Below, piece after piece: positions 23,801 through 52,235 of a stretch of 64,000 bases of DNA. Numbering within the stretch: position 1 is the first letter of the stretch; every line of letters starts with the position of its first letter. Under the pieces are notes generated by a model. That model was not told the origin of the DNA. It did no database searches and saw nothing but the letters and a program-made list of their open reading frames with translations. The DNA is from Candidatus Peregrinibacteria bacterium CG10_big_fil_rev_8_21_14_0_10_55_24 (GTDB lineage Bacteria; Patescibacteriota; Gracilibacteria; Peribacterales; Peribacteraceae). A program made the translations under genes and the position numbers. Location of the stretch: NCBI GenBank assembly GCA_002772745.1, contig PFDV01000003.1, positions 1 to 64,000 on the forward strand, written 5' to 3'.

Positions 23801-23977
23801 AGCGACAACGTTCAATCTCTTTCAGTGATCAATACAGTAAATGGCAAGTTCGTCGACGTGACCATTGATCAATCGTTCCTACCGGTTGAGCAATTCGGCC
23901 GGGAGCCGGAAACTGCAACGAACGACCTGGCTGCCCTTGGAGTAGGAATGCGCGTACCAAAGACAAAGACAACTTAG
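14819..23977 (+). CDS. Giant hypothetical protein, 3052 aa
   Basis: A single uninterrupted frame of 9.2 kb. No signal peptide is visible; the N-terminus (MSTEKPHSAPDAASRTEEL) is polar. Residues about 1-1500 are mostly helical with long charged stretches. A Pro/Gly-rich linker lies at about 1506-1552 (PEPPPSSPPPGGPKGP within it). Then comes a coiled coil at about 1620-1700, hydrophobic segments at about 1934-1953 and 2014-2047 that could be membrane helices, another helical region, and from about 2520 to the end beta-rich domains with recurring WxxxxGK and DGxxxRV-type strands. Residue positions are estimated from the DNA. I recognise no enzymatic motif. The stop overlaps the sufC stop by 4 nt on the opposite strand. 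Very large proteins are known in this radiation, usually thought to be surface or host-contact factors; that role is only a guess here. Confidence 0.85.
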   Translation: MSTEKPHSAPDAASRTEELKHEQEMLTQITGLSPEHLSTYEALQSQSRPLHLACLQHQIALIWKLAESHPSLGPLNPGNQVSLEKRTLWESYGIKDMLKGVNALVPENERQEFILYVNVQLGTLLQGTGKHLAIDSQSKNIVLLDGPAPEQPDVVQYRNVVDSLQNYLAGTLDTQKLESIQYVLKQASQRTPEEQQQALAVYLDHRFAAALKPSRKRITYNKAAKEVVVSADDGQRPDFNKYAYTISLLELLLGGIASKWGDKRPTSGNEALLEHLLSGYMDERTRLIEEGELTAAQNVDRYTAVELAHNEGIALWEDMLSLQEEILAKFNEYFKGQEIPPEVQKLIDEQRETLNEIAKILEERLRVGRATILSKKLAELDKQKLNLLERTNDVIVLSYELSIICKTADKKWTEHLKERIGKALQNMTADQYFELISAWKKAAESQTPIQWNGKTLSPKEANKLLIECYPKLIPVYGDKAFIEEIQAYDLSLAQKVNKKLWIGPEEEIKNIMDTKSLDDLAETLGDWAKSIFVPGEKAGMRHAPVLRPAHLTEQMLHMLNWAAVNKIRSNIGSLSLEDLKSAMADELEKSGLTEQAKQLREGKIPEEKIKEAAKKLADLRNTPETTRMQNMREALAARSDYAQLLMRHYVTLFDRRANITRILALEAHTEPFLPRVCDLPEHMKKALNILTAPKEAGTGMGAPLFATLSGTLALTGMVAAQPETMSRQQAAEVVSRYLRLLQSAERAALLYDINNYLAPNQYVTYQEGGSIELHGWTPEINQFLEGVGAYRDDLTATPPRMANAEEFLRKLPSDEQRDQCILALNIEMAGTNVLVTRNLAGGLETHHRAEFLDAVPFVLARDIQTLRSQAATLDTEKAKPLLVNINEYARTLEEEELYNFIDELNNRLRGTKKMLTIDVRVDQPTLILVEEPSRIELQRMDQKQLALLAQSRRDTLKYADTFWEKYESDVLGGKITLENLLAHLSDRATFEREYQTTATLLDERIEAMEVASRGIWNGISIPGITYWTGFRVPGYYQLPIGTKYWSPYHWFTYGVDIPFTDKRTWNIKDWLGGEKTQKAMQPLIDELGLDIKDEHGVVVKWYLDMTEEERAERCKQSPKIRSIVRTLAQLKIGTNPILHAQRRNIDLLSSLCEEGGLRTENGEIIEDETVERKGFETTIRPRDVAHIFTLQRPSWWPETERQDIELTQKVLDAIVRANDGNSDIFRQFETGEEVEELKKKAPDLLSGNRISDEEVLQMVRTAAAAPTAKERLEQMLPVYFALVKRIEEWDVAAGIRNSGEGANDSAKNQPLIALMSAEQTTDPRYAELRGKIARSPEGELTWKPGVEPTPQQELLLRQMLAEAKWVYERLQTRERQLSLLFLSLERSRNAAVEENIVNHAFMGNARLSAEADFWDQVCAGILNYVLPSSLIWSLQFKKSLLPIRVGFRGSGLYHIIRGGKGMSWTARAWTAPWQPIIVGRDVALRHAPRALWRNTAGRLLRRGGGGPGAASPSPEPPPSSPPPGGPKGPVAPPEQPTGGAKPPTIEAKPPMTTQAAEAVDPIENARMERGRRLAGDVWKEETAAGRIPGETANLTDNVVDDVVRQGHAFRQVEFNGYTQLIRETEQNIASLEGRLASAQQALATAREQSIAQAIGEGTEGTLREASGASTEVTRLSQVTDDLSAELQTARGTLEHAKKMRDFTIVEKKTFVQGLLKKQLPDLPDFVHRRIANRLVSNGVCGFDSVAEIDALMGQTGSFLGPQGSLATETLGAARLLDDVPEAFRANNAVKAVSEMYSGEARAAFGRAANRLAEAGVNADDAARLLEHAPTVRWLSKAETSAGVLRELQATGADLANAAQLRRVASFIEAVQGTSAATDVKVLTSVARSGIDDIGTLATIAKDVRLARNPLAIAKTIDKLAKWGGMSKAGRVITRAGVALEFVALTLSLSEAIETDARIEHLKQTLEKQLYTAGFRQNGDVWRHAASGAELKVSLFKETLEGMDNPAWTRVGVDALSAGIAAGTLCIAPTVLAGPWGIALIGVQVTVQTAIEIWNQTEYRAMMRTIPMPVLALLGTGQLLGKTEADVIADNSNWMVSDSWLETWRGINIEGDKVLARKKAFLAIAYGELVSLSTMQPELFMEIVGDEDPLLFFSEEGRVYKKDFDAFFRPFLAARLFEMSNDGGVKWDEFRELKTDEGAFDWENVTQQDLRTAVRESLLLYAMHRKELSYRNIRESLTAAQAKVDALPNVDSNDALRRKAKAQAEVDRLRALEENPGRIFGTDMRMLPAREPGETQASALVNELTRTLERKTAQVIDDKYSTAMRAYEITVAKSHGREKQFVRHPAIEDFTASREELGGVSLFRLSLPEGLAPQRTQRSVDLNYLHLLAFENQEQLPVIPFTYEQYLAKAKKLYELEFGNMLLRDVGTFGKGSWYAHHEHKRIVEDFGLFLERAKAFDPDGKLAKSIAHLRSFGWESDAYPGDPYLEKRTDAFRQVFSELEKNITYWEAMRYRISPPHREQMATYTETVGYDEYITTTNTPSLVVVVGEGKESKEIPLAFTQKKGVQEFLLPEIGTVTCERESASSYSWNVCGKQKTRFYAYEKNQYGIEQPGSWVQLETPPQKMEIIPPGQDFIIDKNDEFVAELVLTDGTTKRVRVPKPFGASAADTNAGKQLLPYVKMTRLTDSPHFGSLVAKRGKPSAYVWTVDSGKVAWRFQILEPTKIRTLQLTPTGRDEISKLQGATRTIDIAASPDIRSLEKLRRQVSIPEKVPNGTSVQLSERQSVLLWPSWKAAIKLTLADGRVIEGTEESLGELYEYLSVLPRTVREFAGSELKNGLPNKPEDKGLKIVIRNPQAVRSIQLTSPGNEAVLVHIEQRDARMIRMFGLRKQPDGSYERSGWEGKFFPRPDGSLYWTGGRVKGRGPIKPQVWRDGKWGVWMEQAIELRDIVFPKENHTLSVLYRDGQRREFALEKTTSIDGVPLETIGDSLVKILPPSDNVQSLSVINTVNGKFVDVTIDQSFLPVEQFGREPETATNDLAALGVGMRVPKTKTT

Positions 23978-36194: not shown

Positions 36195-36662
36195 ATGACG
36201 ACCCTCAAAACCTCCGACGTGGAAGTAAAAGTGAGAACGGAGAATACCCGAGCCGTCATTGAGGGGAAGACGGCCGTGTCCTTCCAAACCCTTGTCTCCC
36301 TGATTCTCCAAAGAAAAATCATTCCTCTTTTTAAAGAGTGGGGGAAGGATCATGTGATCGTGACCAGCGAATTGCTTACAGCGATCGCCAGCTCTCCGCA
36401 GGACTCCCAGGAAGACCGTACGCGTCTGATACTGGTAACCATCGGCGTAGGAATCCTTGTGGGCGTGTTCTTCCTCGCTGTAACGCAGATCGGCCTCCTG
36501 AGCCTTGGCATCGTTCTGGGACAACAGCAATTGCTCATTATTGCCGGTATTTTGGTGGGTCTCGCCCTTCTTGCGACAGTGCTCACCAAAATCCAACGTG
36601 GTAATCGTGCACAAAAAATCGCGGACAAGATGGAAAAGCTGACATCACTGCTGTCAAAATAA
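36195..36662 (+). CDS. Hypothetical membrane protein with about two to three helices, 155 aa
   Basis: The N-terminal half (residues 1-78) is soluble and charged. The segment LILVTIGVGILVGVFFLAV... (about 78-110) and LLIIAGILVGLALLATVL (about 114-132) are membrane helices, and the basic C-terminus (RAQKIADKMEKLTSLLSK) would be cytoplasmic. No family is recognised. It lies 6 nt before murB in a likely two-gene unit, so a wall-related role is possible but unproven. Confidence 0.7.
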   Translation: MTTLKTSDVEVKVRTENTRAVIEGKTAVSFQTLVSLILQRKIIPLFKEWGKDHVIVTSELLTAIASSPQDSQEDRTRLILVTIGVGILVGVFFLAVTQIGLLSLGIVLGQQQLLIIAGILVGLALLATVLTKIQRGNRAQKIADKMEKLTSLLSK

Positions 36663-37605: not shown

Positions 37606-38451
37606 TTAGAACGGCAGATCCTCCGCTTTAATTTCGGAGGCATACTCCACCGCGGGGACATCTCCAGAAGGCGCCACTTCCTCCTGACGATGCGCCGCAG
37701 GCGCACCAACAGCGTCAGCTTGCACCGATTCTAGTGCGACAGGATTGCGCACGCCCAGAAGACTGACAGCATCGGCGATGATTTCCGTCGTGATGCGCTT
37801 GGAACCCTGCTGTGTCTGCCAACTGCGGTGTTGTACGCGGCCAGAAACGTACAGGCGCTGCCCCTTGCGTACGGTATGGCTGACCTCATCGGCAAGCTCA
37901 CCCCACACAACAACGTTGTGGAATTCCGTGCGTTCGCGATCTTCGCCACTGGCCTTATCGCGCCAGCGCTCATTGGTTGCCACGCCGATCGTGAGCACTT
38001 TTTGCCCGCTGGTTGTGGTACGCAATTCCGGATCACGAGTGACGTTACCGACAACATCTGCACGATTGACGCAGGAGAGCGTTGAGCGTGCACCCTCGGG
38101 AGGTGCGGACTGACCGTCTTTGGGATCAAGAAGGATCATATCCAGAGCAACGATCTTGGTTTTGGAACGTTTTTCCTTGGTTTTTTCATCCTCCCAGGAA
38201 TCCGTCTGCAAGCGTCCTGCTATAAAGAGCTGTGAGCCAGGGCGCACGTACTGGTTTGCGACGTCCGCCATAGGCCCCCACACGGTCACCGTGTGAAATC
38301 CCTTACCTTCCAGCGTTTGCCCATTTTCCGATCGGAACGTATAGGGCACAACGATGTTGAGGTCGGTAACGCTCGCCCCATTGGGAGTCTGACGCAGGGT
38401 AATGGGTTGTGTTTGGTAGCCGATGATGTGAACTCTGTTCAGGGAAAACAT
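37606..38451 (-). CDS. ssb: Single-stranded DNA-binding protein with two OB folds, 281 aa
   Basis: SSB protects single-stranded DNA in replication and repair and recruits partners by its tail. Most bacterial SSBs have one OB fold per chain. Here two are seen: residues about 1-105 (NRVHIIGYQTQPITLRQTPNG, WGPMADVANQYVRPGSQLFIAGRLQ) and about 118-218 (NRADVVGNVTRDPELRTTTSG, FHNVVVWGELADEVSHTVRKGQRLYVSGRVQ), followed by a Glu/Ala-rich linker and the partner-binding tip EDLPF. The two folds differ clearly. Deinococcus/Thermus SSBs have this double layout. The start ATG is at 38451. Confidence 0.95.
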   Translation of the reverse strand: MFSLNRVHIIGYQTQPITLRQTPNGASVTDLNIVVPYTFRSENGQTLEGKGFHTVTVWGPMADVANQYVRPGSQLFIAGRLQTDSWEDEKTKEKRSKTKIVALDMILLDPKDGQSAPPEGARSTLSCVNRADVVGNVTRDPELRTTTSGQKVLTIGVATNERWRDKASGEDRERTEFHNVVVWGELADEVSHTVRKGQRLYVSGRVQHRSWQTQQGSKRITTEIIADAVSLLGVRNPVALESVQADAVGAPAAHRQEEVAPSGDVPAVEYASEIKAEDLPF

Positions 38452-38778: not shown

Positions 38779-41700
38779 ATGCTTTGCTCTCGCGGATGCG
38801 CCATTAGCACGGTGAAGATGCTCCTTATGGGAGTACTCTTCCCCCTAGGATGGCTTGCATTGCCTCAGATGAGTGCAGCTTACCCTCTGGAAGTAGACCT
38901 CAATCCGGGAAGTTTTGACGATATCAAGAAAGTTGTATACCCCGGAAGCGGCGATGAGAATATTCCCACCGACCTCAGAAAAGCTCAATGTGGCGGGTGG
39001 CCGGAGGAAATCATGGAATCGGATTTCGACCCCAAAGACTTAGGTGAGTGGACTGTTGTCGACAAGATTGCCACCGTGACCGGTCTCCCCGGTCGCAACA
39101 GCTCCCCCTTGGGAAATATCAAATCCGGTATGGCAGATCGAGAGTACAATTTCATCGCCCCCGGTGATGTTCCCGTCTGCGGGTTTCGCAGTTCCTGCCG
39201 CCCGGGGAACCCCCCTTTCTACAAAGGACCTCTCCCCTGCCAACGGCCATTGGGCGGTATCGACCCTGATCATCCGGACACCGTTCCCAACGACCGCGGA
39301 GGAATGGTGGAATTCTCCTGCGGAGGAGGAACCATGCCGGGAGACGGGCACGTCTGTCCTGTATTAGAAACAGAACCTAACGGGCTCTGCGATTACATGA
39401 ACACTCACTGGCTGGAGGGATACTATGAAAAGACCTTCTACATCGGTCTCGACTGCGTTGAGCGTTCGTCTCCTCCTGATGATGGGGAATATTGCACAAT
39501 CACCCGTTACCAAAACCGACCCTGCCAAGTAGAAACAGCAGATAAAATTCCACCTGCCTACGGCGCTGGTTACTCGCTCGCGCAGATCCGCTACTGCTGC
39601 ACGCATCAGGGAATTTCCGGTCCCGACGGACTTTCCGGTGACATTTATGGGCCTGACGGTCGTGGGGATCTCCCCGGCGATACCTCGGTACTCATGGAGA
39701 ACTGTATCGATTGCCACGGTTCCGAGTGCCGCTACTGCATGCCATCGGTGGACACCGATGGCAATGGAACGCTCGATGCGTGGGTCGGAGACTGCGATGT
39801 TGAACCTGATCCCCCACGCAGACAGTACTACCCCCCCTGGCGCAGCGAGGTGAGAGCATGCAACAAATTCTTCGAAGAGAACGACGTCTCCTGTTACGTG
39901 AGCAGAGGACCCAGCCTGCGTGGAAAGCGCTACCGTTCATATTACCGTCATTACACAGCAGGCTATACGCGTAAACCTGTCGCGGAGAAGTACGTGAAGA
40001 AGGACGACCATGAGAAATGGGATATTCCTGTTTCCTGTTACCGGCTCTACGTGGAATTCGACCCGTTTGAGAAAACCGTCCCGCGCAACCAGAAGCACTG
40101 CGTGATGGCGTTCTACTACCCGGAAGAGTTCCGCAACTTCAAGAAGATGCGCCAGTCGCAAGCCGGCAAGGGGTCGTTTGCTTCCACGCTCCCCGATACG
40201 GCTGTGGCGATGCTGCGTGAAGAGGAAGAAGGAGACCTATGGTACCTCTTGGGCAATGCTTTCGCACTGACCGATGGGGAAGTATTCAAGGAGGAATTCA
40301 ATAGTGACATCAATATGGCGCTGGTTTCCAACGCGGATGTCGCTCAGTTGCAGGCTTCGATCCAACTGAGACGAGGAACGGAAGATGACGATGGAAAGTT
40401 AGAAGAAGATGAACTCCCCGATCAGCTCCTGTCCCATGGAGCGCTTTTGCGCGCCTTTGATGACACGGTACACGCACAAGCGGGGGACAAACGTGCCGTC
40501 GCCGAGTGGTGGCAGGAGCAGGAAACCGTGGCACATTGGCTCCTCACACCGCCCATTGCTCATATTCTCCTTCCTCCAAGCTGGTCCATGGGCCTTGAGC
40601 CGCTTCAACCGCTCTTCGTCCCTCAGGTGCAAACTGCTCCTAATGCTTCTCAATCTGATCCACAGATGCAGGTACTGGATGTACCAGTGCATGCCGACGA
40701 TGATCTCCTTGGAGACATTCAGGTTTTCCTGCAGAACATGCTTCTCTCGATTCAACCCGAACCTATTCCCGTCGTCATCCCCTTGGGATCTGCAGCAGAT
40801 TTGCGTATGGCGGCAGAGGCGTGGAAGGGGTGGAAAGTACGCCAGGAATTCCAGGGAGGATCGGTCCCTGCGGAAGTGGATACACTCATCACCAGACTGG
40901 AGGAGTACGCAAACAATCTTGATCGTTACCGTGCACTGCGAGGAGAAATTGCCTGGTTCGCCGGTAAACTCTTCGACCGCCAGCGTACGCTCTACGATGA
41001 AATTGGGGAGTGGATTACCGAAGATGTTATGGGCGTGTACACACAGTACCGCTCGCTGCGCGAAACCATGCTCCAAGATCAGGGCCAGTGGAAGAGCATT
41101 CAGAAAACGTATCGGGAAATGCATGACCAGAACAGCATGCCGTGGTGCCACAACGACCGCTTTACCACGCCGATTTACTCACTCCTTGACCCGTGGATGG
41201 AGGGAACTGGAGGAAACCCGGAACCCAGAGAGTGGCTCGATGGCGGTTTGCTCCCACGACTTTCATTAGATGATTACGGTGATTTCTCCTTGGACTTCAC
41301 CGGTCTCAAACTCCCGGAAAATCCTCTAATTTTCCCTGTCCTGCAACCGATTCAGGTACGCATCGAAGCTGATATCCTCCAGCCGCCGGACCTGCTCAAA
41401 TCCGTTACGGCTCCAGAGGTGCCTGTACTTCCCTCACTCCCGCCTGTCCCCAGTCTTGCCGATCTCTTTGATGGACAGAGCAACGAAGCGCTCTTTCCTC
41501 CTATTGTTGTAAAAAATGAGCCAGAAATCGGTTTTTCCATGCCCGGTGGCGTAGGAAGCATCGCCGAAACACTTGGAAAAATCCGTACGACCATTCGTGG
41601 CATCCGTACGGAGTACAAACGATTCTGGGATAGCACTCTCGCTCTCCTCATCTACGGTGTCGGCAGCGGCAAGGAGGACTTCCCCAAACTTACGGAGCAA

Positions 41701-42192
41701 GATTGCTACCGCCAGGGAAGAGACACCTGCGTCCATGCCGAGATGGATCTGCGCGAACGTCTGCAGAGAATCGGATCGAGACCCGCGATCCTCCTGTGGG
41801 AAGACTTCAAAGCGCGAGGCGACTTCCGTCCCACTCCTGGAAGTAAGAAGGAGGATGGCACAACAGTGAACTTCCGCATGGATTCCTGTCCGCCGGAAGA
41901 CTGGGCCTGTCAGCTCTTGCGCGGCCGGGAATTCTATCCAACGCGGGGATGGCAAATCTTGTGGGATGACGAACGCGAAGAGAAAACACAAAAGCCTGCC
42001 ATTGCCTGCGGATCTGGCAACGGCGAAGCAATCGACCAATTGCGGACGTGCCTCTTCGAGGAATCTCTCTATGATCAGCGGTTCCCCTACGAAGGAGGGA
42101 GCGAATCCATCACACCCTCATTCGCAGTCCCCAGCGGGGAAGAACTTATCCCTGATCCCAAGGAAGAAACACGATCTTCTTCCTCTCCATAA
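38779..42192 (+). CDS. Large secreted cysteine-rich protein, 1137 aa (cluster gene 1)
   Basis: Start ATG 38779 gives a short polar N-terminus and the hydrophobic core MLLMGVLFPLGWLALP, a secretion signal probably cleaved near SAAYP. About 28 cysteines follow, 21 in the first 480 residues, suggesting disulfide-stabilised domains. CIDCH at 309-313 looks like a heme c motif but is single. An EF-hand-like loop DTDGNGTLDAW at 325-335 could bind calcium. The middle (about 540-800) has helical and Asp/Glu-rich parts; the C-terminal third has Pro-rich strands (PEVPVLPSLPPVPS) and a Ser-rich end. I recognise no family. A start at ATG 38818 is possible. It leads the five-gene cluster. Confidence 0.78.
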   Translation: MLCSRGCAISTVKMLLMGVLFPLGWLALPQMSAAYPLEVDLNPGSFDDIKKVVYPGSGDENIPTDLRKAQCGGWPEEIMESDFDPKDLGEWTVVDKIATVTGLPGRNSSPLGNIKSGMADREYNFIAPGDVPVCGFRSSCRPGNPPFYKGPLPCQRPLGGIDPDHPDTVPNDRGGMVEFSCGGGTMPGDGHVCPVLETEPNGLCDYMNTHWLEGYYEKTFYIGLDCVERSSPPDDGEYCTITRYQNRPCQVETADKIPPAYGAGYSLAQIRYCCTHQGISGPDGLSGDIYGPDGRGDLPGDTSVLMENCIDCHGSECRYCMPSVDTDGNGTLDAWVGDCDVEPDPPRRQYYPPWRSEVRACNKFFEENDVSCYVSRGPSLRGKRYRSYYRHYTAGYTRKPVAEKYVKKDDHEKWDIPVSCYRLYVEFDPFEKTVPRNQKHCVMAFYYPEEFRNFKKMRQSQAGKGSFASTLPDTAVAMLREEEEGDLWYLLGNAFALTDGEVFKEEFNSDINMALVSNADVAQLQASIQLRRGTEDDDGKLEEDELPDQLLSHGALLRAFDDTVHAQAGDKRAVAEWWQEQETVAHWLLTPPIAHILLPPSWSMGLEPLQPLFVPQVQTAPNASQSDPQMQVLDVPVHADDDLLGDIQVFLQNMLLSIQPEPIPVVIPLGSAADLRMAAEAWKGWKVRQEFQGGSVPAEVDTLITRLEEYANNLDRYRALRGEIAWFAGKLFDRQRTLYDEIGEWITEDVMGVYTQYRSLRETMLQDQGQWKSIQKTYREMHDQNSMPWCHNDRFTTPIYSLLDPWMEGTGGNPEPREWLDGGLLPRLSLDDYGDFSLDFTGLKLPENPLIFPVLQPIQVRIEADILQPPDLLKSVTAPEVPVLPSLPPVPSLADLFDGQSNEALFPPIVVKNEPEIGFSMPGGVGSIAETLGKIRTTIRGIRTEYKRFWDSTLALLIYGVGSGKEDFPKLTEQDCYRQGRDTCVHAEMDLRERLQRIGSRPAILLWEDFKARGDFRPTPGSKKEDGTTVNFRMDSCPPEDWACQLLRGREFYPTRGWQILWDDEREEKTQKPAIACGSGNGEAIDQLRTCLFEESLYDQRFPYEGGSESITPSFAVPSGEELIPDPKEETRSSSSP

Positions 42193-42201
42193 TTCCCACT
42201 C

Positions 42202-43116
42202 ATGAAACGCTTTCTTCTTCTATCGGCCATCTTCCTCCTGGGGTTTGCTTCCTTCGCGAAAGTAAAAGCTGAGGAACCCCCTGTCCCCAACGAAGCCACC
42301 TGCAAGGCACGCATTGACCATGAGCTCGCCCGGGAGCAACGCCTGTACCGTTACGCACTCTTCGGCAGATCCAAAGCTGAAGATGCTGGTATCGGAGAGG
42401 TGTGGTTCGATACCGAGGGCATCGCCTGGTACAAAGCGGCAAAGAACAAATGGGTTTCCCTGACCCACCCCGGCCTCGAATGGACCAACATCACCATGGA
42501 AAAGCAGGCGGAGATCGACACTATTCCCACGGACAAAGGAGGCATGAATTTCCCCCGCCCCGGGTTTTTTGACACGAAGCGCGTGCTTACCTCCGACCTC
42601 ATTCCTCATGTCGAACAGGGCACGCGCTCCCTGCAATGCCGCGTGAATACGCTCTGCGCGGCAGTACGCGCCATGATGCAGCTTTCGAGTACAGATGGCG
42701 CCATACCCGTCACCGGCACTGCAGACGGGTGCCTGGAGAGAGAAATGTCCTCCATGATGGAGTGCCAATTCGCACTGACAAAAAACCAGGTAGATAACGC
42801 TCTTGCATTCACACATTGCGAAGACGTGGGGGAACAGCTGATTGAACGGGAAATCGCTCTTTTGAAGCTCCTTTTTGAATACGATGCATCGTACCGTTCT
42901 CTCCTGCAATTTGCCGGATTCTTTGATACGTTCCTGGAAGACCTGCGCTGGACCGTTGTCGGTAATATCCGCCAGGCCGCTTCCATTATTGGTTGGTTGC
43001 ATCGAATTCCCTGTTTTACCTCCAGCTGCGACGAGTATCCACCCCAACTGCTCCGCGAAGACCGCCCGGAAGAGCTGAATACGAATATCAGTTCCCAAAG
43101 TTCTCCCAGCTCATGA
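42202..43116 (+). CDS. Secreted cysteine-containing protein, 304 aa (cluster gene 2)
   Basis: MKRFLLLSAIFLLGFASFAKVKA is a clear signal peptide. A mixed domain (WFDTEGIAWYKAAKNKWVSL) is followed by helices with cysteine pairs (for example CRVNTLC) and a helical segment EREIALLKLLFEYDASYRSLL ending in EDLRW. A similar arrangement, ILREVLFFLNDRYAALLK ending in EDLRW, occurs in cluster gene 5, suggesting a shared domain. The C-terminus is Ser-rich (NISSQSSPSS). It starts 9 nt after gene 1 and its stop overlaps the next ATG. No known family. Confidence 0.85.
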   Translation: MKRFLLLSAIFLLGFASFAKVKAEEPPVPNEATCKARIDHELAREQRLYRYALFGRSKAEDAGIGEVWFDTEGIAWYKAAKNKWVSLTHPGLEWTNITMEKQAEIDTIPTDKGGMNFPRPGFFDTKRVLTSDLIPHVEQGTRSLQCRVNTLCAAVRAMMQLSSTDGAIPVTGTADGCLEREMSSMMECQFALTKNQVDNALAFTHCEDVGEQLIEREIALLKLLFEYDASYRSLLQFAGFFDTFLEDLRWTVVGNIRQAASIIGWLHRIPCFTSSCDEYPPQLLREDRPEELNTNISSQSSPSS

Positions 43117-44045
43117 CAGAGAACCTTCTCATTATGGGCGTGTGTACGAGAAGGCATTGGAGCCTCTTTCTCCTCTGTCTGTTGATGGCTGAAGTGGGAA
43201 TTGCCATCGCCGCATCTGCCCCTCCCAAACCTAAGTTCCCTGCACTCTCTGCCTGCAGCCGTTATGAGTTCCCCGTCTTCGAGAGTCTCGATTTCATGGC
43301 GTTCGGCCCGAATGAGGAGATCATTCTCTCTGCAACAGAGCTTTCTGCGTGGCGCGATCAGTTCCACGGCACTGTGGACGGGCTTGTAGAAGAGGATATA
43401 GGAAGACGCACAGGAGGAGAACACAGCGCTCTGCGCCAGCCCGATCCTCCACTCCAATGCACGGCAAATGATTACAAAGGGTTCTATAAACCCCGCGGTA
43501 CTCTCCAGGGCCTCGCGAGCCAATTGCCTCTTTGGTACAGAGGAGACGACTACCCTTGGGACGAGCGTACAATCGCCGCCCGGGGTATCAACAGTCAGAA
43601 CCTGACGCAGCTTGATATGCCTGCCGTGCTCATGGAGTACTTGCGCATGTACGAGTGCGCCCATATCGAACGACACTTAGGACAAATCGTCGATACCTCC
43701 TCGGAAGAATGGCGCAGGCTGGAAGCATTGGAGGCTTTTGGCTTCATCCAGGCGTTTCGAGTGGTTCTGCACGCAGGAGAGCTCGCCCAAAAAGTCATTG
43801 AGCAGCGGAGAGATTCTTGGTACGACCTGGATATCGCGCGCGTAAGCGTTCATCGGACCCTCACGCTCCTCGCAGGGATCAACCGCCTCAAGCTCATCGA
43901 TGCAGAACTCACCTGCATCCAGCAAGCATCGCTTGATATCCGCAATGGATTTGCGCTCGCCGCAGACGCAAGTTCGTGCCTGCCAAGAGTATGGAATGCA
44001 AAAGACCCTCTCCGTGATTACAAAAACCCCGACGATCAATGGTAA
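43113..44045 (+). CDS. Secreted protein with helical C-terminal domain, 310 aa (cluster gene 3)
   Basis: The ATG at 43113 overlaps the previous stop (ATGA), which fixes the start. The hydrophobic stretch SLFLLCLLMAEVGIAIAASA is the signal peptide. The N-terminal half has Pro/Tyr-rich loops with few cysteines; the C-terminal half is a helical bundle with a central YECAHIERHLGQIVDT segment and a closing ELTCIQQASLDIRN-type helix and CLPRVW. No family is recognised. Its stop overlaps the start of gene 4 by 7 nt, so the two are coupled. Confidence 0.83.
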   Translation: MTENLLIMGVCTRRHWSLFLLCLLMAEVGIAIAASAPPKPKFPALSACSRYEFPVFESLDFMAFGPNEEIILSATELSAWRDQFHGTVDGLVEEDIGRRTGGEHSALRQPDPPLQCTANDYKGFYKPRGTLQGLASQLPLWYRGDDYPWDERTIAARGINSQNLTQLDMPAVLMEYLRMYECAHIERHLGQIVDTSSEEWRRLEALEAFGFIQAFRVVLHAGELAQKVIEQRRDSWYDLDIARVSVHRTLTLLAGINRLKLIDAELTCIQQASLDIRNGFALAADASSCLPRVWNAKDPLRDYKNPDDQW

Positions 44046-46627
44046 AACGATTGTTGTTCTTCATCGGCCTCGTCTTGCTTGCCCCTCTTCGGGCAAGTGC
44101 TGCGGATACCCTCTATGAACAGATAAAGAAGTTTACCGAGCACCAGTTTATGCAAGAGGAAATGGAACCGGCAATCAACGCGTTCATCCGAACTTTGGTG
44201 AAAGTAGACCCGCAACTCAGCGAGGACGAAGTGAACGCCCTCCTGCGAGGAGAGATGGGTCCCTGCACAGAGAAAAAAGTTGACGATAATCCACTGGATC
44301 AAACCAGTTGCGTTGCTCTGCAGAAGAGAATCTCCGCATTGGCACGCCAAGAAGAACGCATACGCACCCTGGGCAGAGATCTCCAGCTCATTGCTTCGGG
44401 GTACGAAATGCCCATCGGCGATTACCCGGGGAAGATGGTCTCTATCCCTCCACGCTTCCGCAGCATCATTACCGTCTGGCAATCCAGTAACGACTGGGCC
44501 ACCACACCGGTCGTAGAGCGGAAGGTACGCACGGTCGGATACCCAGACGGTATAGAGGAAGACATATCGAGTGTGGAATCTGCACTGTATGAGCTGCAAC
44601 AACAGAGTGAGGGCGGAGACAATGTTCTCTCTGCCGCAGTATGGCGGTATCGCCACGGATTACGGCAGGTGCAGAACGAAGAGGGTGGTACATCTTGTGA
44701 GAATCTTGAGGCAGGAGATGGAACAGAGCTTCAGTACGTGCGTGCGCGCTGGTGCGCGCTGGAGGATGCCCTGGAGTATCTTCTTGTGTACATCATAAAA
44801 AACACAACGTATGATCCGCCGCTTGAGTATGGCGAAGTGGCAATCTTTCCCACATGGCTCTTTAAAGAGCTTGGTATCCTCGTGTGGGTGCGCACAAACT
44901 TCACACCACCCATCGTCGACGATGGAGAAGATGACGAAGAAGACGGAGAGGACCCGACAATTATGATTGATCCTAGTATCGGAGACATTGGATTGGAGTG
45001 GGAATTCCCGATAGAGCCGGTCCTCCCTTCGCTCGATTGCTCGCAATCATCTCCAAAGGGAGCTGGTACTGTTTCCTGCAAGGACAATATAATTATCGGC
45101 GGCATCTATCCGGAACCGCCGCAAGAACCTGGAATCGGAGCCAAGCTCTGCAGCCACCCCTTCTCTTCCCAGGGATATCTTTGCCGACCGCTCGATCTGG
45201 GAGAATGCCCGATGAGTATTGAGGAAGAGGAACAACCAAATAGCCCGTCACAGCAGCCGAAAACGGACACAGGAGGAATTCTGCTCACGCGATGCTATCC
45301 ACGGAACATGAAAGAGCTCACCAGGCAAACGCTCTCCGGGCCTAATGCCTGCGAAGTAGGCGGATGGCGGCTGGATGAGCCGACCATCAACGGAGAACCG
45401 TTTGAGGATTCACCAGAGAAGGACTTGGATGCAGAGGACCTTAAGGATGCAAAGATTCCTCCTGATAAGGATTTCCCCCTGGCCTTTGATTGTGGCAATT
45501 GTTCTGTAGACATCTACTGTGGTGATTGTCCGGAGGGGTTGGGAGGAGGGACGTTCCCAAAAAACGAATTGGGCGTTATCCCTATTTGCCTCTCCAACAA
45601 GGAAAGCTCTGCGGCCTTGAAGTACCTCCTCATGCATGAGCTTGTCCACGCACAACAAAGGTGCAATCAACAATCGGTTTCTATTGCAGAAAACCTGAAA
45701 GAGTGCTGCTCAATTGAACACGATGCATACCTCATATTATGCAACGCCATGGCCAATGACGGCATTTTCGATGGAACGGATATCACCATGGATCTTTGCT
45801 CGAGTGTTCTTTCCAATTACAGTTGTAAGAAATATTGGAAGGAAGAGAAAGTAGACGACAAAACCCGCATCATCGCGTGCACGGACATGGATGATAAGGC
45901 TGAGTTGGAGATGTGGAATGGAAAGATTGGAGACGCCATTGTAAAAAATGGCGCCTCTGCTGCGGAAAGCTGCGATCAGGTTGTGAACTCCATGGACATA
46001 CGTGCTCGCCAACAAATCAATTCTCTTCAGCTCGCCTGCAAGCCCGATTGTCCAGCGCAGTACAACAACACCATAGGGAACAACGCCTGTTACATCGCAC
46101 AGTGCACGGAGCAAACGCTGGAAACCGAGCGCCTGCTCCCCGGTCGCATAACGTACGTGAGTGAGGGCGAATCGTACCCGTGGGATTCCACTACTCCGGA
46201 AGACCCTCTCATTGGATCGCTTCTCCCTGTTCCCCCCGTCCCTCTCACGCGCTTCCCGACCTACGAACCGGAGCGTGTGGTGAAAGATCTGGAACTCGCT
46301 CTCTGCCAGGCAAACGGCTATCCCATACAAAATCCTCCTCATGAATGCAGTTATGATCTTTTGCGTGGCGTTTCCTTCCAGTTGCCAAATGCAGCCCTCA
46401 CGGGTTCCAGCTGGATGCGGCAATTTGAAGAGCAAGAGCGTGCCGCACTTGGTCTCCAGGGTCTGGCACAGGGCATGGGTGCGCGTCTGGGGACGAACCT
46501 TTTTGCGCAATACTTGGACCGCTCGGGGAGAACATTCTGGGAACTTATCACTGATCTTAACCAAATTGTCGGCGGTATCGCCGACATAGAATTCCCCGAT
46601 ACGATGTGCGCCCGCTACCGTGAGTAA
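44039..46627 (+). CDS. Secreted cysteine-rich protein with HExxH metallopeptidase-like motif, 862 aa (cluster gene 4)
   Basis: MVKRLLFFIGLVLLAPLRASA is a signal peptide with an AXA-type site. By my count the chain has 31 cysteines. Helical domains fill residues about 25-270, followed by an acidic stretch DDGEDDEEDGED (about 297-308). A C-x2-C-x5-C-x2-C pattern at 485-497 (CGNC..CGDC) looks like a zinc ribbon. HELVH at 533-537 is an HExxH zinc site; E560 in IEHDAY, 23 residues on, is a plausible third ligand as in gluzincins. The surrounding LLMHELVHAQQRC resembles known zinc peptidases, but the rest of the chain does not match a family I know. Activity is therefore inferred from the motif only. 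Confidence 0.83.
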   Translation: MVKRLLFFIGLVLLAPLRASAADTLYEQIKKFTEHQFMQEEMEPAINAFIRTLVKVDPQLSEDEVNALLRGEMGPCTEKKVDDNPLDQTSCVALQKRISALARQEERIRTLGRDLQLIASGYEMPIGDYPGKMVSIPPRFRSIITVWQSSNDWATTPVVERKVRTVGYPDGIEEDISSVESALYELQQQSEGGDNVLSAAVWRYRHGLRQVQNEEGGTSCENLEAGDGTELQYVRARWCALEDALEYLLVYIIKNTTYDPPLEYGEVAIFPTWLFKELGILVWVRTNFTPPIVDDGEDDEEDGEDPTIMIDPSIGDIGLEWEFPIEPVLPSLDCSQSSPKGAGTVSCKDNIIIGGIYPEPPQEPGIGAKLCSHPFSSQGYLCRPLDLGECPMSIEEEEQPNSPSQQPKTDTGGILLTRCYPRNMKELTRQTLSGPNACEVGGWRLDEPTINGEPFEDSPEKDLDAEDLKDAKIPPDKDFPLAFDCGNCSVDIYCGDCPEGLGGGTFPKNELGVIPICLSNKESSAALKYLLMHELVHAQQRCNQQSVSIAENLKECCSIEHDAYLILCNAMANDGIFDGTDITMDLCSSVLSNYSCKKYWKEEKVDDKTRIIACTDMDDKAELEMWNGKIGDAIVKNGASAAESCDQVVNSMDIRARQQINSLQLACKPDCPAQYNNTIGNNACYIAQCTEQTLETERLLPGRITYVSEGESYPWDSTTPEDPLIGSLLPVPPVPLTRFPTYEPERVVKDLELALCQANGYPIQNPPHECSYDLLRGVSFQLPNAALTGSSWMRQFEEQERAALGLQGLAQGMGARLGTNLFAQYLDRSGRTFWELITDLNQIVGGIADIEFPDTMCARYRE

Positions 46628-48416
46628 ATTCCCCGCTCTTCTCGGCCGGACGAAAACCATACTTCTTTGTGTGGGATGTGGCCTGGCCTTCCTCTCTTCC
46701 CAACCAACGCAAGCCGCAGGGAATTGCCAGGCTGTAGATGGCATCCTCCAAAACTTACAACCAGTATCCCAACAGTACACAGCGCAAGTGCTCGCCCGTG
46801 CTCAGGAGGGCATCGATTTTGCCATGGGACTGCAGGGAGGATTTGACGACAATGCGTTTCTTTTTTGGCTGAACGAAGCCTACCGCAGCATGAGCCAAGT
46901 TGCCGACGAAGAGCTGCATACGCTTCCATCTGTAAAAGATTTGGAAGGAACAACATCCTGCCTGCGCATTGATCTCTTTTTGATACAAACCATGATGGAG
47001 AAGACGCGCTGCTCCATTGAACAGGCTTTCACAGGACGAAATAACAGTGCGGTGGCAATACTGCGCGAAGTGCTCTTCTTCCTCAACGATCGCTATGCTG
47101 CACTCCTCAAAGGGGCACGGGATAACACGTACGAAGATCTGCGCTGGTGGAACGAACACACGTTCGATAAACCTCAGGGGGCAACGTGGCTCAGTAACGT
47201 TGCCTACAGCGACACGTATTGCTGCTACAGAGCGGGTGATACCTGCGCCGTACGCGAAAAGTCATGCCCAAACGATGCGCAGTACCTCACGGAGGATGCG
47301 TGCATCGGTCAAAGCCAATGTATTACCAGAGAAAACCAGAAACCCACCGACTACAAGATGTGCCCCTTCGATTCGGATTACCTACCGCCAACCATCATCG
47401 TCCAATGGTACGCCTTGGATCCATCCAAAGACCCGCCAAACAACGTGGAGTACTTCGACGAACCAGTACCAGTAGGATATGGCTGCGATCTCACCGTCCT
47501 CTCGCGCTATCGTGGACTCTACCTGGATGGAACGGACTTCGACGAGGCGCTTCGCAGTGAGTACGTAGCGCTTGATGCATTGATCAGGGAACGTGACGAT
47601 TTCATTGAAGATGCCATGGAGATGAAGGAGAACGCGCAGAATATTGACTCCTGGTTGGGACGCCCGCCAAACCAAGCGCTGCAATACTTCGGCTGGACCA
47701 GGGAAACGAAGAAGAAAGGTACCGGAGACGACGCAGAAACGGAGCAGGTACGCGAGCACCGAGCTCGCCTGGGCTGCAGCGAACAAGACGGCTACTCCAC
47801 CGATCTGCCGGAAGCCCCAGAGGAACGCTGGCCCCCGGATTGGCCAGAGGGTATGGCAGCACAGGAGAAACGCGGCCCGTTCTCTGTAGATGAACGCGTG
47901 CTCAAATTGATGCGCAGTTACCAGGACTGGCACTTGCGGCTCGCAGAGGAGCGTCCCTACCCCGACCAGTATAAATTTCCGGAGGAATTCCCCCCGGCTC
48001 TCCAAGAACAGGCACGCAATGATTTCCAGTATGTCAATCTCATCACACGAACATTGCAGTACGATTATGGACGGCGATTCTTTAGAGACGAGCACATCAA
48101 GCAGGCGACATTCGATAGCTTGATTGCTGGCAAAGCCCTGGATAGCCCCCGTCATTTCGCCGCGATGTTCACTCCTCTGCGTGCAGCAACCAGTGAATTT
48201 TCGCAGATGGGCAACTCCCTGGATGAGGGGGTGCGAAACTTCGCAAAAGGATTCGCGTACTTCCTACGACGCTCTTGTCTGAATCGTCCATGCAATGAGC
48301 GCCTGGAACGCATCCTGAAAATCGTCTTCCAGGATGATTGTTTCCCCTACACAGATGGACAGTATGTAGGTGACACAAACGTCCACAAAACCTGCGAGGA
48401 GGCGGCGGAGCTTTAA
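46620..48416 (+). CDS. Secreted cysteine-rich protein, 598 aa (cluster gene 5)
   Basis: The GTG start at 46620 lies inside the end of gene 4 (8-nt overlap). The hydrophobic stretch TILLCVGCGLAFLSS and the AXA-like QAA form the signal peptide. Residues about 25-180 are helical with an EDLRW segment shared with gene 2. A dense cysteine knot (YCCYRAGDTCAVREKSC and following, about 200-240) comes next, then helices and a C-terminal cysteine pair region (RRSCLNRPCNERL, CFPYTD). No known family. It ends the cluster 84 nt before dnaE. Confidence 0.82.
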   Translation: MSKFPALLGRTKTILLCVGCGLAFLSSQPTQAAGNCQAVDGILQNLQPVSQQYTAQVLARAQEGIDFAMGLQGGFDDNAFLFWLNEAYRSMSQVADEELHTLPSVKDLEGTTSCLRIDLFLIQTMMEKTRCSIEQAFTGRNNSAVAILREVLFFLNDRYAALLKGARDNTYEDLRWWNEHTFDKPQGATWLSNVAYSDTYCCYRAGDTCAVREKSCPNDAQYLTEDACIGQSQCITRENQKPTDYKMCPFDSDYLPPTIIVQWYALDPSKDPPNNVEYFDEPVPVGYGCDLTVLSRYRGLYLDGTDFDEALRSEYVALDALIRERDDFIEDAMEMKENAQNIDSWLGRPPNQALQYFGWTRETKKKGTGDDAETEQVREHRARLGCSEQDGYSTDLPEAPEERWPPDWPEGMAAQEKRGPFSVDERVLKLMRSYQDWHLRLAEERPYPDQYKFPEEFPPALQEQARNDFQYVNLITRTLQYDYGRRFFRDEHIKQATFDSLIAGKALDSPRHFAAMFTPLRAATSEFSQMGNSLDEGVRNFAKGFAYFLRRSCLNRPCNERLERILKIVFQDDCFPYTDGQYVGDTNVHKTCEEAAEL

Positions 48417-48500: not shown

Positions 48501-51500
48501 ATGAAACCCGAGGATTTTGTCCATCTGCACTGCCACTCCACGTATTCGCTCTTGGAGGGGCTTCCTAGTACAGAAGAGATTGTGGAAAGGGCTCAGGAGT
48601 TGGGACACAACGCCGTGGGCCTCGCCGATAAGGGGTACACGTACGGTCTGGTGGAATTCTACAAGATGGCGGCGGAACGGGGGGTCAAACCGATTCTTGG
48701 CTTGGAGACCTATGTCGCAGCTCGCTCACGACATGATAAGGAGAGCGGCATCGACACGAAGCGGTTCCCCTTGGTCCTTTTTGCAGAAACTCAGGAGGGA
48801 TATGAAAACCTCCTGTGCCTTGCAACACTCGCAGCGGTGGAGGGTATGTATTACAAACCGCGTGTCGATCGCGAGCTTCTCGCAAAATACGGTAAGGGGC
48901 TCATCGCCCTCACAGGACCGCTATCGGGCGCAATCCCCCAGGCCGCTCTCGCGGAAGACGCCGAACAAATCCGCAAGTTGGTGGAGGAATATCGGTCGTA
49001 CTTCGGCAAGGACAACCTGTACTTCGAATTAATGGATCTCCCCAATGTCACAGGACAAGCAGAAGTGAACCAACAGCTCATCCATTGGGGTAAGGAACTC
49101 TCTGTCCCCCTCGTGGTCACCTGCAACAGCCACTACTGCCGGGCACAGGACGCCGAAGCCCACGACGTGCTTCTTTGCATCCAGAAGAACACGCGTGTGG
49201 ATGACCCCAGTAGATTTTCCATGCGCGATTCTGATTTCTCAATGCGTCCGTACGAAGAACTCGCGAAGATTTTCGATCATGTTCCAGAAGCTCTCGAAAA
49301 TACGCGGGTGATCACTGACCGGTGTTCAGTTGTCTTGGAGTTCGGCACGTACCACATCCCACGGTTTCCGGTGCCAAAGGGCACAACAGAAGAATCCGAG
49401 CTTGTTCGCCTCGCCAATGAGGGGCTTTCCAAGCGTTATCCTCAACCTACACAAGCGCAGAAAGACCGTCTTGAACATGAGATCTCTGTTATTAAGAATA
49501 TGGGATTCGCTGGCTACTTTCTCATTGTCGCCGACTTCGTCAACGAAGCAAAACGTCGTGGCATCGCGGTAGGACCCGGTCGCGGATCTGCAGCTGGTTC
49601 TATTGTTTCCTACTGTCTAAACATTACAACGCTTGACCCGCTGGAACATGGACTGCTTTTTGAGCGCTTTCTCAACCCAGAACGCATCACCATGCCAGAT
49701 ATTGACATGGACTTTGCGGACACGCGCAGGGACGAAATTCTTGAATATGTGCGTGAAAAATACGGTGAAGATCGTGTTGTGCAAATTTGTACATTTGGAA
49801 CGCTCGCTGCGCGTGCCGCAGTGAAGGATGTTGGACGAGCATATGGCATTCCTTTTATGGAAATGAATGCGCTGGCAAAGCTCATTCCTGAACGCCCAGG
49901 AACACTCCTGAGAGAAGCGCTGGAAACGAGTGAACTCAAAGCAGCTTACGAAAGCAACGAAACGTACAGGACGATCATTGATACCGCACTCAAGCTTGAA
50001 GGAAAAGCTCGCCATGTTTCTGTTCACGCTTGCGGTGTCATTATTACAGAAGAACCGACTGTCCAATACACTGCTCTCCAACGAGCCTCCAAGGACGAGC
50101 ATATCATCATCACCCAAGCATCAGCGAAACCCTTGGAAGCCCTGGGGCTCTTGAAAATGGACTTTCTGGGACTTACAAACCTCACGGTAATCCAAACGGC
50201 ACTGGAAATCATCGAACGAACCCGAGGAGAAAAAGTTGATATCGCCTCCATTCCACTGAACGATAAAAAGGCTTTTGCGCTCCTCCAACAAGGAGATACG
50301 ACTGGTGTATTCCAATTGGAATCCGCAGGTATGCGGCGGTACTTAAAACAGCTTGTTCCTACGACGTTCAATGACATCACCGCGATGGCGGCTCTTTACC
50401 GCCCCGGGCCCATGGACTGGATTCCAAGTTTCATCAAACGAAAACATGGAAAAGAAGAGGTAAAATTCCTCCATCCCGATGTAGAACCTATTTTTCGTGA
50501 AACGTATGGCATTGGAGTGTACCAGGAGCAAATTCTTCAACTCGCCCGGCTATTTGCCGGTTACTCATTGGGAGAAGCTGATCTCCTGCGTCGTGCTATC
50601 GGAAAGAAAATTAAGAAAGAACTTGATGCGCAGCGAGATAAGTTCATCGCGGGAGCTGTCGCAAAGAAGTACGAGAGAAAACTCGCTGAGCAAATCTTTG
50701 ATGATGTCATCATGCCATTTGCGGGATATGGCTTCCCCAAGGCTCATGCAGCTGGCTATGCACGCATCGCCTATGAAACGGCTTATCTGAAGGCAAACTA
50801 TCCTGCAGAGTTTATGGCAGCGCTTCTTTCGAGTGATGCCCAGCGTACTGATCGCGTCATGATCGAGATTGAGGAATGCCGTGCAATGGGCATCGAGGTT
50901 CTGCCTCCGGACATCAACGAATCACTCCGTCATTTCACTGTGGTTCCCGGTACGAAAAAGAGAGAGGAGACCATCCGCTTTGGACTGACCGCAATCAAAG
51001 GAATAGGTGATAGTACGGTACAAAACCTGATTGCCATCCGCGAAGAGGGGGGAAAGTTCACAAGCATCGAAGATTTTGCTCGCCGCATACCGACGAAAAT
51101 TCTCAATAAGAAGCTCCTGGAGTCCCTGGCGAAATCGGGGGCATTTGATTCGTTAGAAAAGCGCCATGTTCTCGTCGCACACTACGGAACCATTATCGAG
51201 TTCGCAAAATCCTGCGGGGATATAAGCAGCGCACAAACAGACCTTTTTTCCCATATGGACACTGAAACCGAACCTCCAACAATCGAATTCCCACCAACAG
51301 AAGACATCCCTCTCCAACAGCAGTTGCAATGGGAAAAGGAAACGTTGGGCCTCTATGTTTCCAGCCATCCTTTGGCGGGTTTGAAGAAGTACATCGGGAA
51401 AAAGGCGCAGCTCATTGCGAGTTTGACAGCGCAGGATGCGGGAAAGAAAGTGACAATTGCCGGTATCGTGGAAAGTGTGAAGAAGATTACGACGAAGAAA

Positions 51501-52235
51501 GGGGAAACAATGGCTGCTGTTGTCCTAGAAGACCCAACAGGAAAAATCGAGGCCACCTTGTTCCCCAGAACATTTGCAGAGGCCGCCGGATTCCTGGAGG
51601 CATCTGATGTGGTCATTGTCGTAGGCGGAACGGTTGATCTGCGTGCCGGCCAACTGCAGATCCGCGCTAGTGCTGTAAAAAAAGCCTCGCTCTCCACTAT
51701 GATTGCCCGTGCAAAAGAAGAGGGATTTTTCGACGAAGAAGAGGCACGCAAAGGACTTTCATTCATACGGCCACATCCTGCGGAAGAAGAGAAAATTGAG
51801 TTAGTTGATGAGGAGGGCAACGTCGTCGCAGGAGAAACGGTAAGCATTACCGAAGAAGCAACGGAAGAATTCCTCGGCCCACTCGGACGATGGTTAATGG
51901 ACGGGGCAAATCCTAAAAAAGCCCTGCAAATCCTGCAGGAAGATATTGCTAACTCAAAGGATTCCCCTTCTGCAAAAGATACACCGCCATCAGCGGAAGG
52001 GGGCGAGCCGAATCCCACGCGTATTTCCATCCACACGATTTCGCTCCCTAAGCGGGCACCGAAAAAGCTCCTCCTTGATCTGAAGAAAATTTTGGAAACC
52101 TTTCCGGGAAAGGAAAAAGTACAACTGAAAATAGGGGAGCAAATCATACCGCTTCCACTTACGGTAAGTTTTTCGACGATTCTCGAGCAGAAGATTTCCG
52201 AAACGCTGGAGCGATACTCTTCTCCTGTGCCATAA
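48501..52235 (+). CDS. dnaE: DNA polymerase III alpha subunit
   Basis: This is the main replicative polymerase. The PHP domain begins FVHLHCHSTYSLLEG (residues 7-20). The polymerase active site includes PDIDMDF, with Asp402 and Asp404 as likely metal ligands, and GPGRGSAAGSIVSY before it. The RPGPMDWIPSFIKRKHG and FAGYGFPKAHAAGYARIAY segments are typical. A C-terminal OB-type domain (KVTIAGIVESVKKITTKKG) is near residues 985-1030, followed by a short tail. No 3'-5' exonuclease is fused, so this is DnaE rather than PolC. Length 1244 aa is normal. Confidence 0.97.
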   Translation: MKPEDFVHLHCHSTYSLLEGLPSTEEIVERAQELGHNAVGLADKGYTYGLVEFYKMAAERGVKPILGLETYVAARSRHDKESGIDTKRFPLVLFAETQEGYENLLCLATLAAVEGMYYKPRVDRELLAKYGKGLIALTGPLSGAIPQAALAEDAEQIRKLVEEYRSYFGKDNLYFELMDLPNVTGQAEVNQQLIHWGKELSVPLVVTCNSHYCRAQDAEAHDVLLCIQKNTRVDDPSRFSMRDSDFSMRPYEELAKIFDHVPEALENTRVITDRCSVVLEFGTYHIPRFPVPKGTTEESELVRLANEGLSKRYPQPTQAQKDRLEHEISVIKNMGFAGYFLIVADFVNEAKRRGIAVGPGRGSAAGSIVSYCLNITTLDPLEHGLLFERFLNPERITMPDIDMDFADTRRDEILEYVREKYGEDRVVQICTFGTLAARAAVKDVGRAYGIPFMEMNALAKLIPERPGTLLREALETSELKAAYESNETYRTIIDTALKLEGKARHVSVHACGVIITEEPTVQYTALQRASKDEHIIITQASAKPLEALGLLKMDFLGLTNLTVIQTALEIIERTRGEKVDIASIPLNDKKAFALLQQGDTTGVFQLESAGMRRYLKQLVPTTFNDITAMAALYRPGPMDWIPSFIKRKHGKEEVKFLHPDVEPIFRETYGIGVYQEQILQLARLFAGYSLGEADLLRRAIGKKIKKELDAQRDKFIAGAVAKKYERKLAEQIFDDVIMPFAGYGFPKAHAAGYARIAYETAYLKANYPAEFMAALLSSDAQRTDRVMIEIEECRAMGIEVLPPDINESLRHFTVVPGTKKREETIRFGLTAIKGIGDSTVQNLIAIREEGGKFTSIEDFARRIPTKILNKKLLESLAKSGAFDSLEKRHVLVAHYGTIIEFAKSCGDISSAQTDLFSHMDTETEPPTIEFPPTEDIPLQQQLQWEKETLGLYVSSHPLAGLKKYIGKKAQLIASLTAQDAGKKVTIAGIVESVKKITTKKGETMAAVVLEDPTGKIEATLFPRTFAEAAGFLEASDVVIVVGGTVDLRAGQLQIRASAVKKASLSTMIARAKEEGFFDEEEARKGLSFIRPHPAEEEKIELVDEEGNVVAGETVSITEEATEEFLGPLGRWLMDGANPKKALQILQEDIANSKDSPSAKDTPPSAEGGEPNPTRISIHTISLPKRAPKKLLLDLKKILETFPGKEKVQLKIGEQIIPLPLTVSFSTILEQKISETLERYSSPVP

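Follow-up and report, generated by a model that had tools for sequence, protein, structure and literature searches.

Five consecutive genes in the window (the whole stretch of 64,000 nucleotides that was analysed), here termed g1 to g5, form a block whose known relatives are confined to a single GTDB family of the sampled genomes. The reading that we favour, and hold with somewhat more conviction than doubt, is that the block encodes a single surface complex, in which a fixed frame of five proteins carries an exchangeable display module. The five genes and the two genes that mark the edges of the block are arranged as follows.

ssb, 37606-38451, minus strand: divergent upstream flank, the left edge of the block
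g1, 38779-42192, plus strand: exported protein of 1137 aa with 30 Cys; start codon at 38779 putative
g2, 42202-43116, plus strand: exported protein of 304 aa; 9-nt gap after g1
g3, 43113-44045, plus strand: exported protein of 310 aa; ATGA overlap with g2
g4, 44039-46627, plus strand: exported protein of 862 aa with 31 Cys; 7-nt overlap with g3
g5, 46620-48416, plus strand: exported protein of 598 aa with 18 Cys; GTG start, 8-nt overlap with g4
dnaE, 48501-52235, plus strand: downstream flank, the right edge of the block

The ORF listing reproduced exactly the five genes, sizes, and junctions given in the earlier note, and the single operon proposed there is supported by this layout together with the gene order of the relatives described below. 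Annotation of the flanks placed ftsW, murG, a prolyl isomerase gene, gltX, murB, and the divergent ssb upstream of the block, and dnaE followed by a Sua5-type gene downstream of it, in a source genome of 1.29 Mb that is 98.8% complete. An AAGGAG sequence lies ~24 nt 5' of the ATG of g1, and the g1 frame is open back to position 38293. The TAGTAT hexamer previously proposed as a -10 element before g1 did not withstand examination, as seven copies occur in the window against 6.4 expected and the copy in question lies 9 nt from the ATG without a partner hexamer; no promoter-like hexamer pair was found ahead of g1.

The distribution of the block was examined among genomes of the same family, class, and phylum. 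The g5 gene was found in 65 of the 74 genomes, and in 37 of the 40 genera, of the GTDB family to which the window belongs. All g4 matches among 145 sampled genomes of the class, and all g5 matches among 192 sampled genomes of the phylum, fell within this family, and neither gene was detected in the other sampled families of the class or phylum. On the question raised earlier of whether the five genes always occur together, the complete loci, including that of the window, were collinear in 54 of 54 cases, with the same order on the same strand and never scattered, so that the arrangement cannot be attributed to chance; ssb and dnaE were also in their expected places in 42 of these loci. A further ten loci were incomplete, because a contig or the fetched stretch ended within them or, in L119, because g4 is strongly altered.

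Nine of the 74 family genomes lacked g5, and at least six of these were complete enough for the absence to be a true one, indicating that the system is not essential. In three near-complete genomes, G005, G008, and G023, ssb directly adjoins dnaE with none of the five genes in between. No g1, g2, or g5 was found elsewhere in these genomes (g3 was checked at the locus only), and the sole g4 match among them was a peptidase domain inside an unrelated protein of G005. A 1069-aa surface-type protein joining the same M76-like domain as in g4 (described below) to DUF4215-like repeats is encoded in this genome (L069:6251-9460). In a housekeeping tree built from dnaE, ssb, murB, and gltX, G023 pairs with the carrier L117, and G005 and G008 stand beside the carrier L059; since the operon-less genomes are thus nested among carriers, the whole block was lost at least twice. 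Both states, operon present and operon absent, occur within genus g24, in G353 and G023, respectively. The operon tree was mostly concordant with the housekeeping tree (21 common splits at support 0.9), and the supported conflicts, which concern 8 of 32 operon splits and are clearest for L042/L136, are best read as transfer of the whole block as a unit.

The five proteins also co-vary. Pairwise distances among them gave rho values of 0.79-0.88, compared with 0.34-0.58 for the five against the adjacent ssb or dnaE and lower values against murB and gltX; these figures compare strengths and carry no p-value, because related sequences are not independent points, and faster evolution together with block transfer could explain part of the raised correlation. 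The median identity was 29-33% for the five, as opposed to 55-71% for the neighbour genes. Profile comparison among the five revealed no shared domain or sequence similarity, and they are therefore not internal duplicates. That g1 to g5 constitute one functional unit is well supported.

The signal peptides that the earlier note assigned to all five proteins were seen in each as charged residues at the N-terminus with a hydrophobic core behind them; further along, no transmembrane-like stretch occurs in any of the five. A C-terminal sorting signal with a transmembrane segment, of the sortase-anchored type, was likewise absent from all five window proteins. Cysteine accounts for 2.6, 2.6, 2.3, 3.6, and 3.0% of g1 to g5, respectively, compared with 0.79% in the rest of the window, a three- to fourfold enrichment; the cysteine richness claimed earlier for three of the genes is thus real and extends to all five. 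Eight cysteines of g2 are invariant across 27 aligned relatives, and invariant cysteines were seen in the alignments of each of g1 to g5, which suggests that the proteins are stabilised by disulphides. Thioredoxin_4 (DsbA-type) genes are present at three loci in the source genome; VKOR and DsbB, sought as the partners re-oxidising DsbA, were not found. With respect to anchoring, the g3 homologues in L055, L056, L058, and L059 begin with a lipoprotein-type signal, and the g5 homologues of L054 and L120 end in a C-terminal transmembrane segment; we read both features as signs that exported parts, soluble otherwise, are anchored in occasional lineages. The g3 protein of the window has an ordinary signal peptide with no lipobox, and the homologues suggest g3 as the best candidate for a membrane anchor.

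We then compared the five proteins with known families and folds. Sequence searches with the proteins or their profiles against Pfam, NCBIfam, PHROGs, and the PDB returned nothing above the cut-off for the window proteins, in agreement with the earlier statement that no family was recognisable apart from the motif in g4. No SLH or other S-layer domain of Pfam or NCBIfam was matched in the five, no VirB4-type ATPase or channel gene lies in the cluster or among its flanking genes named above, and no prepilin signal (G-F-T/S-L-x-E) or PilY1/beta-propeller domain was present in g1 to g5, which have ordinary signal peptides. There was no significant PHROG match, g1 had no match in phages, and g5 had none in plasmids. 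The T4SS_pilin and DUF4215 domains were considered as family traits and rejected, each being an addition to a single member.

The g1 protein comprises a conserved core (residues 370-1137) and a variable, cysteine-rich N-terminal part, which is the site of the peptidase domain in four relatives. For the core, AlphaFold2 predicted beta elements and one long helix (mean pLDDT 73, pTM 0.67); the model of g4 (mean pLDDT 68) is built of helices, the C-terminal one being long. The two helices map to the window as follows.

40873-41133, plus strand: predicted 87-residue helix, g1 residues 699-785 (AlphaFold2, pLDDT ~90 there)
46391-46582, plus strand: predicted 64-residue C-terminal helix of g4, of low confidence in the structure model

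Fold searches with the g4 and g1 core models against the PDB gave nothing at E <= 0.001, as did a search of g1 against viral proteins; several zinc peptidases were among the weak matches of the g4 model, none of them significant. No structural match to a known pilus, S-layer, or secretion system, the outcome that would have spoken against the earlier reading, was thus obtained with these two models. Provisionally, the modelled proteins appear to have no known fold, as judged by these PDB and viral comparisons. The components are new in the sense that all of them fall short of curated family cut-offs and that, at the sensitivity used, no fold was matched.

In g4, a fixed N- and C-terminal frame surrounds an insert in the middle of the protein. 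The positions of the insert and of its putative zinc ligands in the window are listed below.

45314-45841, plus strand: exchangeable insert of g4, a disulphide-rich zincin-type domain distantly like Peptidase_M76
45635-45649, plus strand: HELVH motif, g4 residues 533-537, read from the sequence
45716-45718, plus strand: presumed third ligand Glu560 in CCxxE, from the alignment

The metallopeptidase motif reported earlier for g4 was found again as HELVH. In most lineages, the insert is 160-180 residues long and disulphide-rich, with HExxH and a downstream CCxxE. The window domain scored 23.5 bits in isolation and 20.4 bits in the full protein against Peptidase_M76 (PF09768), below the Pfam cut-off of 25.2, and an M76 match at E <= 0.1 was seen in 10 of 42 relatives. 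The HExxH zinc-binding motif is shared with Peptidase_M76 (ATP23-like) proteins and with the putative metallopeptidases of DUF6782, but, in addition to its low score, the g4 domain differs from these in being secreted, in having many conserved cysteines, and in residing in a large unrelated protein, where it is dispensable and mobile between two genes.

This mobility became apparent from a comparison of relatives. In L066, L113, L121, and L122, the domain is located at the N-terminus of g1 and is missing from g4, and it was never seen in both g1 and g4 of one operon. The HExxH motif is lost in seven homologues (L047, L050, L053, L060, L070, L114, and L118), in which the domain is predicted to be catalytically dead, and the whole domain is absent in ~13 loci, including L059, L062-L065, L067, L068, L110-L112, L127, and L128. 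In L119, the g4 slot is occupied by a 2629-aa protein (L119:6008-13894, minus strand) whose C-terminus matches g4 (E 6.7e-24) and whose middle consists of ~23 CGDG-type cysteine-rich repeats over ~2,100 aa. These sequences show that the frame of g4 is conserved and its module exchangeable. The relocation of one domain between two proteins is a classic sign of partnership, and the movement between g1 and g4 is the best sequence evidence that these two proteins are partners. Since the module decays or is exchanged in relatives that retain the frame, proteolysis as such is not what the frame is for. The co-variation, the losses of the whole block, and this relocation lend indirect support to the extracellular assembly suggested in the earlier note, and it is likely, though less firmly so than the functional unit, that the five proteins form one physical complex.

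On this basis, we propose that the products of the operon are subunits of one complex outside the cell, on the surface of Peribacteria, a family of very small, uncultured bacteria. Each of the five proteins would be exported through Sec and, once outside, oxidised into a disulphide-stabilised, largely helical form, and together they would build a frame fixed to the membrane or wall, for which g3 is the leading anchor candidate. Within the complex, g1 and g4 would adjoin, and one of them would bear an exposed, exchangeable module, usually zinc-peptidase-like, sometimes dead, in one case a 2,100-residue cysteine-rich array, and sometimes lacking. If there is such a complex, display of the module at the surface is the likelier arrangement, by a modest measure. 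Most likely, the frame would then serve to hold the module outward so that it can touch or attach to other cells or surfaces; that its purpose is contact with a host or another cell is plausible, and we put this forward with less than even confidence. An attached lifestyle is consistent with the literature on Peribacteria (PMC4736985).

Several other explanations were weighed against this surface complex. The five proteins might sit at the tip of a type IV pilus or as a collar at its base, in a role like that of PilY1 and the minor pilins, and would be brought to a host by the pilus; in the related Saccharibacteria, it is type IV pili that drive binding to the host (PMC12206443). Indeed, in ~11 loci (L043 (14487), L050 (14488), L072, L074, L114-L116, L118, L132, L134, and L135), the stretch from g5 to dnaE holds a prepilin gene of one subfamily, on the same strand as the operon, its products being 52-83% identical to the query pilin and closer to it than most other pilins of the same genomes, and one g5 homologue bears the Pfam T4SS_pilin domain. 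However, these loci cluster in a single part of the tree and may therefore stem from a single acquisition, the prepilin motif occurs only in this separate downstream gene of some relatives and in none of the five proteins, the block contains no assembly genes, and the window itself has no pilin between g5 and dnaE. The same gap also takes up unrelated genes, and the operon-less G005 and G023 still have pilins. Because the pilin linkage occurs in that part of the tree alone and the gap accepts other genes as well, it was rejected as the main explanation and kept as a rival that we consider unlikely. The other genes in the gap encode, in L064 and L121, a small protein in which two repeats resembling RNA-recognition motifs were recognised by eye, and a 713-aa membrane protein, H+-pyrophosphatase-like by eye, between g5 and the pilin gene in L072 (L072:1524-3665).

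A structural coat or wall-associated layer, either S-layer-like or a scaffold crosslinked to the wall and trimmed by the protease module, would suit large, acidic, disulphide-rich exported proteins encoded near ftsW, murG, and murB, but the same neighbours are unchanged where the operon has been lost, S-layer and wall-binding Pfam domains and C-terminal anchors are lacking in the window proteins, and a plain coat less commonly diverges as rapidly as the five do; we regard this reading as distinctly unlikely. The HExxH...E motif of most lineages would also be expected of a system that degrades protein outside the cell or acquires nutrients, with g4 as its enzyme, and Peribacteria are predicted to depend on external amino acids (PMC4736985). 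The retention of the five-gene frame where the motif or the entire domain is gone, and the absence of a linked transporter, make a degradative role very unlikely. Finally, the lack of similarity among the five proteins is what would be seen if they were unrelated exported proteins merely sharing a promoter, an explanation rendered extremely improbable by the conserved order in every complete locus, the whole-block losses, the strong co-variation, and the domain relocation between g1 and g4.

The proposed surface complex was also compared with described systems. Among the open-access papers searched, we found none that describes this five-gene block. The type IV pilus tip complexes (PilY1/PilC with minor pilins, and PilX2 of Saccharibacteria) resemble it in consisting of large secreted proteins encoded in operons, sometimes beside a pilin gene, and in a plausible host-contact role, but g1 to g5 differ from them in lacking prepilin signals, a beta-propeller match, assembly genes, and detectable homology. 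The description of complete Peribacteria genomes in 2016 reported large proteins outside the cell that are often rich in cysteine and may serve attachment, among them a 14-gene cluster of Ca. Peribacter riflensis averaging 7.2% Cys and 1,655 aa (PMC4736985). This cluster belongs to the same lineage and likewise encodes large, exported, cysteine-enriched proteins with a suggested role in attachment, and similar-looking cysteine-rich repeats occur in the g4 slot of L119. In contrast, the present block has 2.3-3.6% Cys and five fixed families in a defined order and locus, and the Myxococcus-type cysteine repeats of that cluster were found in none of the window genes, such repeats being present only in L119.

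The means by which most Patescibacteria hold on to or exploit other cells have, to our knowledge, yet to be explained, and hardly any molecular candidates exist outside Saccharibacteria. Tentatively, the block may represent an undescribed, lineage-specific machine, with a five-protein disulphide-rich frame that has no relatives elsewhere and an interchangeable head, mountable on either of two subunits, that engages other cells. The five genes offer a discrete, testable unit, occurring together and jointly missing from specified close relatives, and the natural variants of the module (active, dead, swapped, and missing) provide a ready-made mutational series.

Three further features of the window were recorded. 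Positions 1-1027 hold a 16S rRNA gene whose 5' end is cut off by the window start, and positions 14819-23977 encode a 3052-aa protein with few cysteines and no Pfam match or obvious signal peptide. Adjoining murB, positions 36195-36662 encode a 155-aa probable membrane protein, which has no Pfam match and is kept in most relatives.
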